51,906 nt of DNA, taken from positions 1-51,906 of the forward strand of contig JAFQXN010000005.1 in the NCBI GenBank assembly GCA_017406905.1, written 5' to 3'. How positions within the stretch are numbered: the stretch's first letter is position 1; every line of letters starts with the position of its first letter. The notes under the pieces were generated by a model. It did no database searches, was not told where the DNA came from, and saw only the letters and a program-made list of their open reading frames with translations. Of the stretch, positions 21,683 to 43,992 are shown in pieces. The position numbers were made by a program, and so were the translations under genes. This stretch comes from Candidatus Saccharimonadota bacterium. GTDB taxonomy: Bacteria > Patescibacteriota > Saccharimonadia > Saccharimonadales > Saccharimonadaceae.

Positions 21683-24667
21683 ATGAAATTCGCGAGTAGT
21701 TACGAACCGAATCAATATGAATCGGATATTTATGCCGCCTGGGAAGCCTCCGGCATCTTCAATCCTAAAATCTCCACCGTGCCCGTTGACAATGACGGCG
21801 ATGGCGTAGACGACCGAGAGGAGGGTGACACTGGCGCTCAAACTAAGCCCGCAGCGAGTGAGCATTTTGCAAGCCCGAGCGAAAGTCGAGAAGCCGAGTC
21901 GAGCCGAGTACCGGATAGTCCCGGGCGCAGGCCCGATTCGGCGACGAAACTTTCGCCCGGCGAGCAGCAAACCGCGAACGAACGTGGGCTTAGTCCTGAC
22001 AGCGACACTTATTCTATCGTCATGCCCCCGCCCAATGCCAACGGCAATTTACACATCGGTCACGGCCTCACCATCGCCCTCGAAGATTCCCTCGCTCGCT
22101 ACTATCGCCTCAAAGGCAAATCCTCTTGGTATATTCCCGGTGCCGACCACGCTGGCTTCGAGACCTGGGTTGTTTACGAAAAATCTCTAGAAAAACAAGG
22201 CCACACCCGTTTCGAATATTCCCGCGACGACCTCTATGCGAGAGTTTGGGATTTCGTCGCCGAACAGCGCGGCAATATGGAGCTCCAACTTCGCGCATTG
22301 GGCGCCTCTTGTTCTTGGAACGACCTTACTTTCACGCTAGATGAGAATGTCATCGACCGCGTTTATACTACTTTCGAAAAAATGTGGAACGACGGCCTCA
22401 TTTACAGAGGCGAAAAGCTCGTCAATTTCTGCCCCAAACACCGTACAGCCTTCGCCGATATTGAGGTCGAGCACAAAGACGAAAAAGGTACCCTCTGGGA
22501 CATTGAGTACAGGCTGGCGGAGAAATCTGACTCTACCGCGAACGAGTGCGAAGTCGGATCCATAATCGTCTCTACCACTCGCCCAGAGACCTTATTCGGC
22601 GACGTCGCCGTAGCGGTCAATCCTAACGACGAGCGTTACAAGGCTTTAATCGGTCAGCACGTCCATCTTCCCCTGACGGATAAAACTATCCCCATTATCG
22701 CCGATGAACACGCCGATCCTGAATACGGCACTGGCGCTGTTAAGATTACACCTGCTCACGATTTCGACGATTTCGAAGTCGGCGAGCGCCACGGCCTTCT
22801 CCGTATTAAAGTTATTGCCGAAGATGGCACCATGATTAATGTACCCGAAAAATACCACGGCCTCACCACCGCCGAATGTCGCAAAAAAGTCCTCAAAGAC
22901 CTCAAAGAGCAAGGTCTCTTAAAAGGTGAGCATAAAATCACTCACTCTGTTGCCCATTGTTACAAATGCGACACCGTCCTTGAACCGATGCTCAAAAAAC
23001 AGTGGTTTATCGATGTTGAAAAACTCGCTAAAGTCGCCATCGAACATCTCGAAAACAACGAAATCAAATTTTACCCAGAAAATAAACAAAAAGTCCTCAT
23101 CAATTATCTCAAAGGCCTCAAAGATTGGAACATTTCTCGTCAAATCCCTTGGGGTATTGCTATTCCAATGTTTAAAAAAGCCGACAACCAAGCCACCGAC
23201 GAGCCGGATTGGATTTTTGATCGTCGCACCAATCTTCAAGAAATCGAAAAAGCCGGCGTTAAATATGTCCGCGATGAAGACACTTTTGATACCTGGTTCT
23301 CATCTAGCCATTGGCCTATCGTTTGTACTGATTGGACAGAAGAAAATTTCAATCCCTATTATCCACTTAACGTTATGGAGACTGGCGCCGATATTCTCTT
23401 TGCCTGGGTGGCTCGTATGATTATGGTTGGGCTGTATGTCACCGGCGAAGTGCCATTTAAAGAAGTTTATCTTCACGGCTTAGTTCTCGATGCGCATGGC
23501 AAAAAGATGAGCAAGTCCAAGGGTAATGTCATCAACCCAATGGACTTAGTTGCCAAATACGGCTCCGACGCTTTCCGCCTCGGCATCTTGAGGAGGCGCT
23601 CCGCCGGCATGAACCAGGCTTTCAGCGAAAATTCTGTCATTTCCGGTCGCAACCTCTGCAATAAATTATGGAATATCTCCAGATTAATACAGAACATGGT
23701 AGATGAGGATGAAAGCCAATCCGAGGCTGTGACAAGTGAGCATTTTGCCAGCCCGAGCGAAAGTCAAGGAGGCAAGTCGAGCCGAGTACCGGATAGTCCC
23801 GGGCGCAGGCCCGATTCGGCGACGAGACTTTCGCTCGGCGAGCAGCAAACCGCGAGCGACCACAGCCTCGGATTGACTCCTATCGTTACATATACCACCC
23901 TCAACATGGGTGAAGACTGGATCTGCCGCGAAATTAACAGCTGCTTGGAGCAGGTCGAAAACTCTATTCGCGACTACCGCTTTGCCGAAGCCGTCGAAAT
24001 CTTATATCAGACCATCTGGGACAAATACGCCGACTGGTTCCTTGAAAGCCAAAAAATCTATCAAAACACCAGTCTTCTCAAGCAGACTCTAGAAACTCTC
24101 CTTATTGCTCTTCATCCCTTTGCCCCATTTGTTACCGAGGCTATCTGGCAGAACTTATCCTGGACTGAGGGCTTTATTGCCACGCAAAAATGGCCCTCTA
24201 GGCTTGTTTACGACGCTATAACAGCCGAGCAATTTGAAAGGCTCATAACCGTCGTTCAGGAAGTCAGAGGCACCTTACAAGCCCTTCCAGGCACCAATAA
24301 TGCCAAAAAATACGGCCTCATGTACGACAACGACGGGCTTATTGCGGATAATGAGCTGCTCATCAAAACCCTCGCCAAAGTCCCAGCGATTAATCCTCTC
24401 AATGGTTCCCCGCGCGGCCTTAGGCTCGCCCTCGCTAATCACGAACTCTACCTAGATGTCCCTGAGAAGGTCGTCAAGGAGTACAAAGACGCTCTCACTC
24501 AGCGCATCCTCTCCGTTGGTCGCGAACTTGATGCCCTCAATCTTCGTATGCAAAATCCTAACTACATCGACAAGGCTCCCGCTCACCTCGTTAAAGAAAC
24601 TCAGGATCAAATTAAAGAAAAAGAGTCCCTCATTTCTCGTCTCAAGACTCAACTCTCCCTCATCTAA
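21683..24667 (+). CDS. valS: Valyl-tRNA synthetase with two in-frame palindromic inserts
   Basis: The enzyme charges tRNA-Val. The 994-residue protein has class I motifs NLHIGHGL (about residue 127) and KKMSKSKGNVINP (about 608), the editing domain (STTRPETLFGDVAVAVNP), the zinc-ribbon-like HCYKCDTVLEPM, the anticodon-binding domain, and a C-terminal coiled coil. Residues about 54-104 and 679-731 are foreign, repeated segments (SEHFASPSES..., RVPDSPGRRPDSAT...) encoded by repeat family A. The first sits between the N-terminal helix and the HIGH motif, the second at the junction of the catalytic and anticodon-binding domains. Both keep the frame and should form surface loops if translated. Confidence 0.95.
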   Translation: MKFASSYEPNQYESDIYAAWEASGIFNPKISTVPVDNDGDGVDDREEGDTGAQTKPAASEHFASPSESREAESSRVPDSPGRRPDSATKLSPGEQQTANERGLSPDSDTYSIVMPPPNANGNLHIGHGLTIALEDSLARYYRLKGKSSWYIPGADHAGFETWVVYEKSLEKQGHTRFEYSRDDLYARVWDFVAEQRGNMELQLRALGASCSWNDLTFTLDENVIDRVYTTFEKMWNDGLIYRGEKLVNFCPKHRTAFADIEVEHKDEKGTLWDIEYRLAEKSDSTANECEVGSIIVSTTRPETLFGDVAVAVNPNDERYKALIGQHVHLPLTDKTIPIIADEHADPEYGTGAVKITPAHDFDDFEVGERHGLLRIKVIAEDGTMINVPEKYHGLTTAECRKKVLKDLKEQGLLKGEHKITHSVAHCYKCDTVLEPMLKKQWFIDVEKLAKVAIEHLENNEIKFYPENKQKVLINYLKGLKDWNISRQIPWGIAIPMFKKADNQATDEPDWIFDRRTNLQEIEKAGVKYVRDEDTFDTWFSSSHWPIVCTDWTEENFNPYYPLNVMETGADILFAWVARMIMVGLYVTGEVPFKEVYLHGLVLDAHGKKMSKSKGNVINPMDLVAKYGSDAFRLGILRRRSAGMNQAFSENSVISGRNLCNKLWNISRLIQNMVDEDESQSEAVTSEHFASPSESQGGKSSRVPDSPGRRPDSATRLSLGEQQTASDHSLGLTPIVTYTTLNMGEDWICREINSCLEQVENSIRDYRFAEAVEILYQTIWDKYADWFLESQKIYQNTSLLKQTLETLLIALHPFAPFVTEAIWQNLSWTEGFIATQKWPSRLVYDAITAEQFERLITVVQEVRGTLQALPGTNNAKKYGLMYDNDGLIADNELLIKTLAKVPAINPLNGSPRGLRLALANHELYLDVPEKVVKEYKDALTQRILSVGRELDALNLRMQNPNYIDKAPAHLVKETQDQIKEKESLISRLKTQLSLI
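21842..21994 (+). repeat. Palindromic intragenic element A, copy 1
   Basis: Arms ACTAAGCCC (21842-21850) and GGGCTTAGT (21986-21994) are perfectly complementary, with weaker complementarity further out to about 21825 and 22010. The 125-nt core (21857-21981) is nearly identical to that of copy 2 (8 differences by hand count) and has internal inverted repeats, for example 21873-21885 with 21949-21961. It is in frame with valS and has no stops. Confidence 0.8.
23717..23875 (+). repeat. Palindromic intragenic element A, copy 2
   Basis: The outer arms at 23717-23731 and 23861-23875 are 15-bp perfect complements (CAATCCGAGGCTGTG and its reverse complement) and have no similarity to the arms of copy 1. 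The core 23735-23859 is the same 125-nt unit in the same frame and orientation. Confidence 0.82.
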
Positions 24668-27562: not shown

Positions 27563-27974
27563 GCCCCAATTGTATCACGCCGGCCCCGATATGCACACCA
27601 TTTCCACTAGCTTTTTCCACCAAAACCATAAACATTTTCTGGCTATTTCCCTGTTGCCTAGCAACCACCACGGCTGGCAACCCGGCTTGACAAACAATCC
27701 CGCTCGCGCTAAAATTAACCCAACAACTGGCAACCTCAAATGCAGTTGGGAGTACGCACGAAGTTTTAGCATCCGCCACATTATTTTAGAAGGAAGATTT
27801 AAACGCTAAAACCGACTGAGAATCAAATTTAGCATCCGCAGGGAATTATCTCTAGACGGAATTATTGCTTATGCAATAAAAGGGGGAAGCGGTCAACCGA
27901 AAGAAAACCGCAAATGCTTTTTTGTCAAAAAAAATCACGTGTTTCAAGGGCGTGAAATTTGTTGTATTACCTAT
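27563..27974 (+). other. Gene-free stretch with repeats and possible structured RNA
   Basis: No convincing gene is present in these about 410 bp. They hold the TACAAT promoter of the minus-strand small gene (27569-27574), an 8-bp inverted repeat GTTTTAGC/GCTAAAAC (27763-27770 and 27805-27812), a 12-bp direct repeat TTTAGCATCCGC (27765-27776 and 27828-27839), a hairpin TTATTGC-TTAT-GCAATAA near 27865, and GCGGT/ACCGC followed by a T-run near 27890-27926 that looks like a plus-strand terminator. A small RNA is possible, but I recognise none. Confidence 0.3.
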
Positions 27975-29000
27975 ATGAATATACCTATTACACAATCTAA
28001 AGCCTGGGCACAACTCCAAGATGATCTAGGAGAGAAATATTTTTTTCGGCAAGCTGACGGCTATCAGTATTTAGCTATTCTTAAGCAAACGCCGGCGGGG
28101 AATTACCTCTATTGTCCTTATGGTCCCGCAGCAGAAGATGGCGCCAGTTTTAAGCGGGCTATTAAATCACTTCACGCGCTCGCTAGCGGTCAGAGAGCCA
28201 TATTTATTAGAGTTGAACCCACCGACGCAAAAATGGTTAATCATTTACCAGATACGGCCAAGAAATCTCAAGATCTTAATCCTAAAGAAACCTGGATTCT
28301 TGATTTATCGGGAAGCGAAGCCGAGCTTAAAGACAAACTTCCTTCTCGTTTATTGCGTTATTATAAATCCGCCACTAAAAAGGGCATTACTATCGAAAAA
28401 TCTCACCGATCAGAAGACATCAAATATCTTCTAGATCTTCAGCGCGCCCTGGCTAAAGAAAAGGGAATCAACACTTTTTCCGAACACTATCTGCAGACAG
28501 AACTCAAACAGCCTTTCGCTACTCTGTACTTGGTAAAATTAAAGAACGGAACATGGACGGGTGACGCGCCTGGAGGGGGCCCCCCGCTGAGCGTACGCGA
28601 AGTGGGGGAGGAAAAGGCGCGGCAGGACCCGCCCAGAGGATATTCAGCAGTACCCGCCGAGAAAATAGTTGCCGCCGGTCTAGTTTTCGATGACAACACC
28701 ACCAGATATAACCTCCAAGGCGCCCAATCTGACGAGGGCCGCAAACTCCACGCCACCGGTATCCTCACTATTCAGCTCATTCTCGACGCTCACGCTCAGG
28801 GCCAAAAACTCTTTGACTTCTGGGGTGTCGCTCCCGAAGGCGCGCCGAGTACTCATCCCTGGGCTGGCTTTACCAATTTTAAGAAAACTTTCGCCGGCTA
28901 TCAAGAAAACCACGCCGGCACTTACGACATTGTCTTAAAACCCGCCAAATACAAGCTCTACCAAACCACCCGCAAGCTCAACCGTCTCCTCCGCAAATAG
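27975..29000 (+). CDS. FemA/FemB-family peptidoglycan bridge ligase with insert B
   Basis: FemABX enzymes use aminoacyl-tRNA to add amino acids to the lipid II stem peptide. The 341-residue protein begins MNIPITQSKAWAQLQDDLG; GNAT-like folds are suggested by WILDLSGSEAELKDKLPSRLLRYYKSATKKG and the C-terminal LFDFWGVAPEG and HPWAGFTNFKKTFAG. Residues about 193-222 (TWTGDAPGGGPPLSVREVGE...) come from repeat family B, inserted between two predicted beta strands. The ATG at 27975 is used because the upstream extension in the frame does not match the family. It is followed by a second, separately promoted paralogue. Confidence 0.88.
   Translation: MNIPITQSKAWAQLQDDLGEKYFFRQADGYQYLAILKQTPAGNYLYCPYGPAAEDGASFKRAIKSLHALASGQRAIFIRVEPTDAKMVNHLPDTAKKSQDLNPKETWILDLSGSEAELKDKLPSRLLRYYKSATKKGITIEKSHRSEDIKYLLDLQRALAKEKGINTFSEHYLQTELKQPFATLYLVKLKNGTWTGDAPGGGPPLSVREVGEEKARQDPPRGYSAVPAEKIVAAGLVFDDNTTRYNLQGAQSDEGRKLHATGILTIQLILDAHAQGQKLFDFWGVAPEGAPSTHPWAGFTNFKKTFAGYQENHAGTYDIVLKPAKYKLYQTTRKLNRLLRK
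28551..28638 (+). repeat. Palindromic intragenic element B, copy 1
   Basis: An 88-nt unit differs from copy 2 at three positions by hand count. It folds as nested stems: GGACGGGT with ACCCGCCC (28555-28562 and 28627-28634), GCGCCT with AGGCGC, and CCCCC with GGGGG around a small loop. It is G+C-rich compared with its host gene, in frame and stop-free. Confidence 0.8.
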
Positions 29001-29030
29001 TCACAATACCTCACCCTCACAAAACTATGC

Positions 29031-29036
29031 TATAAT
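29031..29036 (+). promoter_or_regulatory. -10 promoter (6-nt gap) for the second FemA/B gene
   Basis: TGCTATAAT ends 6 nt before the ATG at 29043. Confidence 0.65.
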
Positions 29037-29042
29037 AGGCAT

Positions 29043-30248
29043 ATGAAATTTGAGCCTATCACCCCAAGCGACTTCGCCGCTTACACCGCCACCAGCCCTT
29101 ACAAATCCTTTATGCAGACCCCTGAAATCGCCAAATACCGCGAACAAAATGGTTGGACTCCCTACTATTTTGCCGTCACGGAAGATGGCCAGATCAAAGC
29201 CGCCACTATGCTTGTCGCCAAACCCACCTTTCTGGGTAAATCCACCTTTATTGCCCCTGGCGGGCCTCTCTTAGATCTTGAAGACGCCAAACTCGTCAAC
29301 TTTTTCTTCACCCACCTCAGAAGATACATCAAATCTCACAATGGCTACACTCTTCAAATCAGCCCCTACTACGAGCTCATCGCGCGCAATCGTAACGGCG
29401 AACCCGTCCCGGGCGGCTTCAATCACCAAAAAGCCCTCAAAAATCTCTCAAATCTAGGCTTTAAACCCCTTGCTACTCCAGACCAGCCCAAATACCTTTT
29501 TGTCATGGATATCAATAATCGTACCCCAGATCAACTTTTTGCCGATTTCAAGCGCAATACTCGCGGTCATATCCGTAAAGCCGAAAAAATGGGCGTCAAA
29601 GTCCGTGAACTGGACAGGGAAGAACTACCCATCTTGAAACAAATTACCGAATCCACCAGTAAGCGCCGTGACTTTACCGACAAGCCCCTCTCTTACTACG
29701 AGCAAATGTATGACCTTTTCCACGCCAAAGGCGAAGTCAAGTTTATCGTTGCAGAGGCTCATATAGAAGGGGCAGCCGACAATGCTGTTACATGGACGGG
29801 TGACGCGCCTGGAGGGGGCCCCCCGCTGAGCGTAAGCGAAGTGGGGGAGGAGAAGGCGCGGCAGGACCCGTCCAGAGAAGGTATTATCTCAAGCTCTACG
29901 CCTCTCAGTACCTCCATGTTTATCCTCTACGGCGACGAAGTCGTCTACCTCTTTAGCGGCAGCGACGAAAAATACATGAAAGACTACAATGCCCAATACG
30001 CCATTCAGTGGCACATGATTAAATACGCTGCCAAGCACGGCTTTCAAAAATACAATTTTTACGGCATCAACGGTCTTCCTGACGTCAATTCCAAAGATTA
30101 CGGCATCTACGATTTTAAAAAAGGTTTCACTTCTGCCACTACTGGCCATGTAGTCGAGCTCATCGGCACCTTTTCTCTTCCCACCAATTCATTTTTCTAC
30201 CACTTGCATTCCAGTCTCGGTAAAATCAAAAAATCTCTTAAACATTAG
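29043..30248 (+). CDS. FemA/FemB-family peptidoglycan bridge ligase with insert B
   Basis: The 401-residue protein is a full-length FemABX homologue: SPYKSFMQTPEIAKYREQNGW, GGPLLDLEDAKLVNFFF, DFKRNTRGHIRKAEKMGVKV, and the second GNAT half with MFILYGDEVVYLFSGSDEKY and KYNFYGINGLPD. Residues about 250-279 are encoded by element B, at the same structural position (a loop after a FIVAEA-type strand) as in the preceding paralogue. With two Fem ligases, stem-peptide cross-bridges of more than one residue are plausible (inference). Confidence 0.92.
   Translation: MKFEPITPSDFAAYTATSPYKSFMQTPEIAKYREQNGWTPYYFAVTEDGQIKAATMLVAKPTFLGKSTFIAPGGPLLDLEDAKLVNFFFTHLRRYIKSHNGYTLQISPYYELIARNRNGEPVPGGFNHQKALKNLSNLGFKPLATPDQPKYLFVMDINNRTPDQLFADFKRNTRGHIRKAEKMGVKVRELDREELPILKQITESTSKRRDFTDKPLSYYEQMYDLFHAKGEVKFIVAEAHIEGAADNAVTWTGDAPGGGPPLSVSEVGEEKARQDPSREGIISSSTPLSTSMFILYGDEVVYLFSGSDEKYMKDYNAQYAIQWHMIKYAAKHGFQKYNFYGINGLPDVNSKDYGIYDFKKGFTSATTGHVVELIGTFSLPTNSFFYHLHSSLGKIKKSLKH
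29790..29877 (+). repeat. Palindromic intragenic element B, copy 2
   Basis: The same 88-nt unit as copy 1, in the same frame. Here the outer stem GGACGGGT/ACCCGTCC is perfect. Confidence 0.8.
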
Positions 30249-36648: not shown

Positions 36649-37935
36649 TTAGTGGTCAATATTTATCCTCGGGTAAATATTAAGCGCGTACGGATCGGTC
36701 GGCTTTACCCCCGATTCAATTTCGTAATATGCCGCCGCTGCCACCATCGCACCATTATCTCCCGAGAGCTTTGGCTCAGGGAAATACGCCTCCGGCAATG
36801 CCTTACGCAACGCTGCATTTGCCGACACCCCTCCTGCCACTACCACCGATTGCACCTCTGGATGTTCTTTCAGTGCCATAGTTATTTTTTCACAAAAAAT
36901 CTCTACCGCAGTCTCCTGAAAAGACGCCGCAAAATCTGCCACTTGTTTAGCGGACAACAAGTCTTTCAACTGATGTGAAGGGTACGAAATCGGCACCCCT
37001 ACCTCTTTCTGCACGGCTCTCAGCACTGCAGTCTTCAGCCCAGAAAACGAAAAATTTAGCCCCTCCATCTTCGGATGTGGCAATCGGTATTTGCCCGGGT
37101 TGCCAGGAGAAATGACGCTAGGTTCAGCATGCTCTGCGGGACATGAAGACTTGGCCAGAAGCGACTTAGGAGCTGTGCCCGAAGGGCACGCTGAACCTAG
37201 CGTCATTTCTCCATCGGCCGCCTTTGCAATACTTGGCCCACCCGGATAGGGAAGCCCCAGTATCTTTGCTACCTTATCAAAGCACTCCCCCACCGCATCA
37301 TCAACCGTAGTTCCAATAATCTCAAACTGATTATGCGCCGGCATATACAAAATCTGTGTATGCCCACCCGACACGACTAAGGCTAGAACGGGGAACGTCG
37401 GAACCTGTGCTTTCTGAAGCATAGAATGATTTGAAAAATTAGGAACGTATATTCCAGACGACACCGACGGGTTCGCCCGCGAAGCGGGCGGTTCTGTCGG
37501 CTGTCCTGCGTATGACGTTCCTAATTTTTCAAGTCCCGCTGAAGAAAACACAGGTTCGACGTTCCCGCTTATAAGCCAATTCGCGTACACGTGTGATTTC
37601 AGATGATGTACGGCATATAGGGGCTTATCATACAAAATCGCCAACATCCTCGCCGTTAAAGTTCCCACCAGCAACGAACCTAGTAGCCCCGGTGCGTGCG
37701 TCACTGCGATTGCATCAATATCATCCCAGGTGCATGAAGCATCGGCCAATGCCTTTTTTACCACTGGCATTATCGCTTCAAGATGCGATCTCGCTGCCAC
37801 TTCCGGTATCACCCCTCCGTACTCGGCAAAAATATCAATTTGCGACACCACCACGTTCGACAAAATTTTTCGCCCGTCTTCAACCACGGCCGCCGCCGTC
37901 TCGTCACAACTTGTTTCTATTCCTAGAATTTTCAT
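36649..37935 (-). CDS. tsaD: tRNA N6-adenosine threonylcarbamoyltransferase TsaD with two inserts
   Basis: TsaD transfers the threonylcarbamoyl group to A37 of ANN-decoding tRNAs. The 428-residue protein is about 85 longer than usual. Core motifs are intact: GIETSCDETAAAVVEDG, VTHAPGLLGSLLVG, metal ligands in HHLKSH, VSGGHTQI, DDAVGECFDKVAK, GLNFSFSGLKTAV and VVAGGVSANAALR. The excess lies in residues about 124-182 (nested palindrome D) and 242-277 (element C, read in the opposite orientation to tlyA), both in loops between conserved blocks. The promoter TATAAT is exactly 6 nt before the ATG. Confidence 0.95.
   Translation of the reverse strand: MKILGIETSCDETAAAVVEDGRKILSNVVVSQIDIFAEYGGVIPEVAARSHLEAIMPVVKKALADASCTWDDIDAIAVTHAPGLLGSLLVGTLTARMLAILYDKPLYAVHHLKSHVYANWLISGNVEPVFSSAGLEKLGTSYAGQPTEPPASRANPSVSSGIYVPNFSNHSMLQKAQVPTFPVLALVVSGGHTQILYMPAHNQFEIIGTTVDDAVGECFDKVAKILGLPYPGGPSIAKAADGEMTLGSACPSGTAPKSLLAKSSCPAEHAEPSVISPGNPGKYRLPHPKMEGLNFSFSGLKTAVLRAVQKEVGVPISYPSHQLKDLLSAKQVADFAASFQETAVEIFCEKITMALKEHPEVQSVVVAGGVSANAALRKALPEAYFPEPKLSGDNGAMVAAAAYYEIESGVKPTDPYALNIYPRINIDH
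37106..37212 (-). repeat. Palindromic intragenic element C, copy in tsaD
   Basis: Arms 37106-37128 and 37190-37212 are perfect 23-bp complements. The core (CTCTGCGGGACATGAAGACT... to GTGCCCGAAGGGCAC) is shared with the tlyA copy, but lies antisense to tsaD. It adds the stop-free peptide ACPSGTAPKSLLAKSSCPAE to TsaD. Confidence 0.85.
37391..37566 (-). repeat. Nested palindrome D in tsaD
   Basis: The outer arms 37391-37409 and 37549-37566 are complementary except for one missing base. The inner arms 37431-37448 and 37515-37532 are perfect 18-bp complements. The centre contains CGCCCGC-GAA-GCGGGCG and CCGAC/GTCGG stems. The two arm pairs suggest one element inserted within another. Confidence 0.75.
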
Positions 37936-39121: not shown

Positions 39122-39256
39122 CCAACTCAAAAAATGCCCCTGGAGGCAACAAACGTCATGGCTAGACTGGCAGGATTCGCACCGAAGGTCCGAATCCCCA
39201 ACTCAAAAAAATGCCCCTGGAGGCAACAAACGTCATGGCTAGGCTGGCAGGATTCG
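39122..39256 (-). repeat. Tandem duplication of tRNA-Gln 3' end plus terminator
   Basis: Units 39122-39179 and 39198-39256 are nearly identical (one substitution, one extra A). Each contains, in minus-strand order, the tRNA 3' part with CCA, then a TGCC/GGCA hairpin and a T-run, an intrinsic terminator. The inner unit belongs to the functional tRNA-Gln. The outer is a tRNA fragment with decayed T-arm sequence at 39179-39197. Confidence 0.75.
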
Positions 39257-39310
39257 AACCTGCGAATGACGGGACCAAAACCCGTTGCCTTACCACTTGG
39301 CGACAGCCTA
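39236..39310 (-). tRNA. tRNA-Gln (anticodon TTG)
   Basis: On the minus strand acceptor TAGGCTG pairs with CAGCCTA (U1-A72 as in bacterial tRNA-Gln). The anticodon loop TTTTGGT gives TTG, the T-loop is TTCGAAT, and CCA is encoded. A TGATAAAAT -10 (39321-39326) lies 10 nt upstream. Confidence 0.95.
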
Positions 39311-43367: not shown

Positions 43368-43992
43368 AGGCTATCGTAAAATTGAGGGTGCTGCCCGCGC
43401 CTTCAATTTTGATTTCCGCGGCAAAGTAGTTCTCGACATCGGCTCCTCTACCGGCGGCTTCACTGAGTATGCCTTAAATCACGGCGCTCAAAAAGTCATC
43501 GCCGTTGAAAAGGGCACCAACCAAATGCTAGAACCTCTCCGCAGCGATCCTCGCGTCGACCTCCACGAAAAAACCGACATCTTCGATGTGGGCTGGATGG
43601 CGACACTAGCGTACTCTGCGGGACATGAAGACTTGGCCAGAGCGGCCCGGAGCGTGCCCGAAGGGCACGCTAGGGTCGCCATCCAGCCCCCTAACATTAT
43701 CGTAGCTGACGTATCCTTCTTATCCTTGACAAAAATCCTAAAGTATGCTAAAATGAACATAGCACGTAGCGATACGGACTACTTAGTTATGCTAAAGCCG
43801 CAATTTGAAGCTAGCCCAGACCAGCTTAGTAGCGGCATAGTCAAAAACGAAAAATATCGTCGTCAAATCATCAAAAATTTTGAACATTGGCTCAAGCAAA
43901 ACGATTTTATCATTATCAAAAAACGTGATAACACCATACAAGGCAAGCACGGTAACTTAGAAAGATTTTACTGGCTCAGAGCAAGCAGCTAG
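43342..43992 (+). CDS. TlyA-family rRNA 2'-O-methyltransferase (no S4 domain) with insert C
   Basis: TlyA methylates 16S and 23S rRNA ribose. The 216-residue protein has the FtsJ-like core: FRGKVVLDIGSSTGGFTEYAL (SAM motif), VIAVEKGTNQM, NIIVADVSFLSLTKIL and DYLVMLKPQFEA. The N-terminal S4 domain of usual TlyA is missing, as the protein starts directly at GYRKIEGAARAFNF. Residues about 83-116 are the peptide of element C, placed between TDIFDV and PPNIIVADVSF. It overlaps efp by 26 bp. Confidence 0.88.
   Translation: MPTANVKNRGYRKIEGAARAFNFDFRGKVVLDIGSSTGGFTEYALNHGAQKVIAVEKGTNQMLEPLRSDPRVDLHEKTDIFDVGWMATLAYSAGHEDLARAARSVPEGHARVAIQPPNIIVADVSFLSLTKILKYAKMNIARSDTDYLVMLKPQFEASPDQLSSGIVKNEKYRRQIIKNFEHWLKQNDFIIIKKRDNTIQGKHGNLERFYWLRASS
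43590..43689 (+). repeat. Palindromic intragenic element C, copy in tlyA
   Basis: The outer arms GGGCTGGATGGCGAC (43590-43604) and its complement (43675-43689) are perfect. After one mismatch, CTAGCGT (43606-43612) pairs with ACGCTAG (43667-43673). The core matches the tsaD copy on the plus strand. Both strands are free of stops here. Confidence 0.85.

Follow-up and report, generated by a model that had tools for sequence, protein, structure and literature searches.

Shared insert in two adjacent FemAB genes

The window analyzed in this study, a stretch of 51,906 nt from a Saccharibacteria genome, carries two adjacent genes with Pfam FemAB matches, FemAB1 (27975..29000, + strand) and FemAB2 (29043..30248, + strand), and raises the question of how an almost identical short sequence came to lie in both. 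The ATG of FemAB1 at 27975 agrees with the starts of its orthologues, and the ORF spans 27939-29000 with a GTG at 27939 as a possible alternative start. The shared unit, here called family B, occupies 28551..28638 in FemAB1 and 29790..29877 in FemAB2, in both cases on the + strand and in frame, with covariance model (CM) scores of 100 and 110 bits, respectively. As originally predicted, it is an 88-nt unit with three differences (85/88 nt identical, 97%), is richer in G+C than its surroundings (72-73% vs 46% in the remainder of the host genes), and folds as nested stems, which we find to be of 9, 7 and 8+2 bp (z = -2.5 for copy 1 and -5.4 for copy 2 relative to shuffles). The strong divergence of the host genes was confirmed as well. 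Flanks of 30-200 nt around the insert are 23-35% identical, that is, random and unalignable, and a DNA comparison of FemAB1 with FemAB2 gave a significant match for the element only (E=3e-38). The proteins are about 32% identical across a 153-residue stretch, insert included.

The position of the insert was compared in AlphaFold models of FemAB1 and FemAB2 built from orthologue alignments. The FemAB1 insert lies between strands 182-190 and 229-239 (pLDDT about 50) and the FemAB2 insert between strands 232-239 and 286-296 (pLDDT about 25). In these two models, which are the basis for the loop assignment, both inserts occupy the turn of the same beta-hairpin and replace it by a predicted disordered loop, in agreement with the same structural position proposed earlier.

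The relatives compared were Saccharibacteria, mostly genomes from ruminant-gut metagenomes together with Candidatus Nanosyncoccus alces. FemAB2 is present in 33/33 Saccharibacteria loci, 31 of which have FemAB1 alongside. Family B also resides in FemAB1 of G012 and L046; most FemAB1 loops are short and variable, and the FemAB2 loop is either empty (VAEVNGKPLSAAMF) or holds other sequences, so that family B is no constituent part of FemA/B proteins throughout the lineage. The other FemAB2 fillings are mostly hairpins from unrelated families (14/15 with z of -3.5 to -12.8), and this loop is the target of at least three unrelated palindrome families.

Dispersal in the genome and the genus

BLAST detected six family B copies in this 585-kb genome, four beyond the FemAB pair, located in FemAB1, FemAB2, IleRS, TyrRS, MnmA and one intergenic region before glyA, and the covariance model raised the number to eight. 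With the same type of search, 86 of the 174 genomes of the genus were found to carry the element; of 295 genomes sampled across the order, only six lying outside the genus gave hits, and these were weak. Within a single Saccharibacteria genus, family B is scattered through roughly half of the species. Copies are few (1-25) and irregularly placed, and the insertions are species-specific, with empty orthologous sites in existence. Among viral contigs, one search pattern gave 0 matches and a shorter pattern one, on a contig without a CM match. Short versions of 52-56 nt stand beside full copies at L149:1495-1552 and L162:1836-1897; they retain the outer and second stems, lack the terminal hairpin, and are possibly internal deletions.

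Conserved fold

Fold statistics were calculated from 129 aligned copies, in which 97.4% of the structural cells are standard pairs and 20 of 26 pairs show changes on both sides. Compensated cells number 625 vs 165+-13 in shuffles, and slid controls are 38-50% paired. While the stem sequences vary, there is next to no variation in the internal loops GGGTGAC / GGCAGGACCC and GGAGGGGGnCCCCC / GGGGGAGGA. Selection on the fold and hairpin-templated correction are both possible sources of the stem covariation. Family B is a palindromic, stably folding repeat of about 100 nt that occurs dispersed. No Rfam match besides tRNAs was found in the window.

In-frame insertion in protein-coding genes

Taking ORFs of at least 150 aa, 89/129 copies fall within ORFs, and 69 of them are internal and in frame, 45 in sense and 24 in antisense orientation. 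The hosts are many and unrelated, with essential genes among them, and include IleRS, TyrRS, MnmA, Tgt, PriA and FtsI-like genes. None of 17 candidate cases, a limited test, revealed a gene split out of frame by the element. In 73-89% of copies, five of the six frames of family B are open; the remaining frame contains the invariant TGA of GGGTGA. The encoded peptides differ between frames. Certain sites recur between species, namely in IleRS (six genomes), Tgt (five) and an FtsI-like transpeptidase (five). At the Tgt and TyrRS sites the element is found in opposite gene orientations, and these are therefore independent hits. Downstream of the family B copy, the IleRS of L003 holds a second, different insert (PSPVKTGARTPSRDEGISSS) that resembles a family in the FemAB2 loops of L026, L028 and L039.

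Two further palindromic families were found in the window. A single ValRS gene contains D1 in frame at two sites (21857..21981 and 23735..23859, both + strand and of the same strand polarity), the two copies being 94% identical; no further D1 copies were found in the genome. D6 is located in frame at 37106..37212 (+ strand), antisense in TsaD, and at 43590..43689 (+ strand), sense in an FtsJ-like methyltransferase, and the FemAB2 loop filling of L032 closely resembles it. A tandem partial duplication of a tRNA gene 3' end (55 nt, 96%, spacing 77 nt) was also observed at 39129-39260.

Chromosome-strand polarity

The orientation of family B tracks the chromosome strand as defined by GC skew and does so irrespective of gene direction. 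Where a contig bears at least two copies, 121 copies in all follow the majority orientation and 12 the minority, where about 40 minority copies are expected under the null. The element strand is the C-rich strand in 111/129 copies, and in 78 of 90 independent sites (p=5e-13) after orthologous insertions were collapsed by a strict two-flank rule. At internal genic sites, the C-rich strand is used in 22/24 sense and 13/13 antisense cases. Both kinds of site share the bias, and the polarity is therefore not a by-product of gene direction. In the genome studied here, the skew is negative on contigs C9 (345 kb) and C8, where every copy is in + orientation, and positive on contig C4, where every copy is in - orientation. 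The D6 family, with copies in the window and on G000 C9 and C7, displays the same polarity, 7 of its 8 genomic copies being in one orientation.

The skew around dnaA was examined in the window (1-51906), G000 C9, G145, G174, G163 and G068. It is very strong (0.1-0.4), does not change sign at dnaA and stays constant for hundreds of kb, which ruled out an origin assignment from skew at dnaA; the share of long ORFs on the C-rich strand, 60%, is a weak indicator. Since, in addition, dnaA lies on the C-rich strand in 5/6 genomes, this genus may have an unusual origin position or skew convention.

Element ends, flanks and the search for a mobilizer

Recently duplicated copies share the ends CATGG...CCAGA, which approximate the mobile unit. 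A logo of 129 copies displays a left-flank preference of about T-T-A-C, the last C of which may belong to the element; the left flank of copy 1 is CGGAA (28547..28551, + strand), directly 5' of CATGG. The preference recalls TTAC, the target of IS608. Target duplication was not seen at the empty sites, where every comparison is diverged; the two most informative ones contain AACAT and are ambiguous, with no clean excision or target-site signature.

The Y1 transposase domain (PF01797, Y1_Tnp) was searched with a positive control and has 0 matches in this genome. It occurs in 8/174 genomes of the genus (7 over the cut-off), with a distribution that does not track family B. Mobilization by RAYT/Y1 was rejected, Y1 being missing from 166/174 genomes.

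Origin of the FemAB pair

One account in the original prediction was that the element already resided in the ancestral FemAB gene and was conserved after duplication. The structural loop common to both paralogues agrees with this, but the tandem orthologues of relatives, with their short, empty or differently filled loops, refute it because empty orthologues exist, and an element identity of 97% stands against a flank identity of about 30%; we regard an origin before the duplication as practically eliminated. Plain gene conversion between the genes, also proposed, is unlikely because their flanks share no homology. The remaining proposal, movement by insertion, is borne out with the addition that the loop tolerates it, the unit being a mobile palindrome that is dispersed and present in many genes.

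The two FemAB copies are 97% identical to each other, and the next-closest copy in the genome reaches 87%. Comparable close neighbor pairs were found in G004, G121, G132 and G103, and near-identical neighbor pairs have similarities of 1.00 at 430 bp, 0.96 at 1239 bp, 0.93 at 792 bp and 0.92 at 1242 bp. The near-identical pairs include an excess of pairs that lie close together (5/31 vs 18/327, p=0.04), a mild effect confined to the near-identical ones. A clear dependence of copy similarity on distance was rejected, mean similarity being flat, and most neighboring copies are not mutual closest relatives. Local hopping is thus a tendency only. The FemAB pair is most simply explained by a recent 1.24-kb hop into the neighbor's equivalent tolerant loop, and two insertions out of one common source are possible.

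Proposed mechanism and alternatives

We propose that family B is a non-autonomous palindromic mobile element of about 85-95 nt, which we name Saccharibacteria coding palindrome. It probably moves via single-stranded DNA at replication forks, with the FemAB pair as a recent hop. One strand of the element would fold while single-stranded behind the fork and would be pasted into the same strand, on the 3' side of a TTAC-like site, in the manner of the IS200/IS605 'peel and paste'; such same-strand pasting would give rise to the polarity. Selection would then retain only frame-keeping insertions in tolerant loops, and the FemAB copies would stem from a recent, probably local, hop from one gene to the equivalent loop of its neighbor.

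Copying without any transposase would also fit part of these data, if a stable hairpin were copied nearby at stalled forks by template switching or ectopic copying and the polarity came from the asymmetry between leading and lagging strands. There is no transposase correlate, very similar copies lie 0.4-5 kb apart on the same strand, and the stem covariation could itself stem from hairpin-templated correction. However, the copies are spread across whole genomes and the genus, have sharply defined ends with the TTAC-like flank preference, and possess invariant internal loops, and we hold this explanation to be unlikely. Alternatively, selection and not the insertion process might produce the polarity, either because the element's G-rich strand is tolerated only on one replication strand or because the element serves as a chromosome-polarity signal. 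This is rather improbable: although polarity is strong in two unrelated families and the genome skew is strong, half of the genus is devoid of family B, the copies are few and irregularly placed, and the insertions are species-specific. A functional RNA, a segment that is intron-like or bypassed in translation, or a protein loop with an adaptive role would account for the conserved fold and the invariant internal loops, yet sense and antisense copies occur in genes at the same site, internal insertions keep the frame, which a spliced element would not need, there is no Rfam family, and the peptides differ between frames. This reading has very little probability. Returning to spread through single-stranded fork DNA, its extension to several unrelated families of Saccharibacteria coding palindromes, moved by an unknown transposase or by none, is tentative, with chances slightly below even.

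Relation to known systems and significance

To our knowledge, most protein-coding palindromes described so far come from Rickettsiales, and their mode of movement has been an open question since 2000. The Rickettsia palindromic elements (RPEs) were reportedly described by Ogata in 2000 and 2002. According to PMC3767692 and PMC10969869, RPEs are palindromes inserted in frame in many unrelated genes, including IleRS and tRNA-modification enzymes. RPEs and the Wolbachia palindromic elements share with family B the in-frame palindrome of about 100 nt and the solvent-exposed segment, and with the Saccharibacteria palindromes in general the occurrence of several families, hot-spot sites and the lack of a known transposase. 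Family B differs by its Saccharibacteria phylum, its GC-rich sequence with invariant internal loops of its own, its species-to-species turnover with many empty sites, and its strong chromosome-strand polarity, which goes unmentioned in the RPE passages considered here. By lifestyle rather than by direct sequence comparison, family B may be regarded as an RPE-like coding palindrome, set apart from RPEs by phylum, sequence and strand polarity.

The orientation of IS200/IS605 elements recapitulates the direction of replication (PMC5371812), and family B likewise follows the chromosome strand. Folded ends and, possibly, a TTAC-like tetranucleotide alongside the insertion are further features in common with IS608 of this family. 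Unlike IS200/IS605, family B contains no tnpA or tnpB and forms a single hairpin instead of two end hairpins; the Y1 HUH transposase characteristic of elements mobilized by IS200/IS605, of PATE/REPIN type, is missing from most carriers, and membership in IS200/IS605 is rejected because of this missing transposase. REP/REPIN sequences are short imperfect palindromes mobilized in trans by RAYT transposases and sometimes intragenic (PMC3116915), with GTAG/CGTC REPs among them (PMC3733652). Family B resembles them in being a short imperfect palindrome that is at times intragenic, but it has no conserved GTAG/CGTC tag and no RAYT, and consists of single units of 85-95 nt mainly in coding DNA. Integron attC sites go with a cognate integrase and cassette arrays; family B occurs as single dispersed units. 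No such elements in Saccharibacteria or Patescibacteria were found in the open-access literature.

Family B represents a parallel coding-palindrome system from a distant phylum whose genomes are streamlined, offering far more than 100 sequenced copies, empty sites and repeated hits on the same loops. Selfish peptides of 25-60 residues accordingly lie in the loops of core enzymes of these epibionts, aminoacyl-tRNA synthetases among them. The strand polarity of family B points to single-stranded DNA, and if spread at the fork is true, it would offer a first way into how RPE-like elements move.
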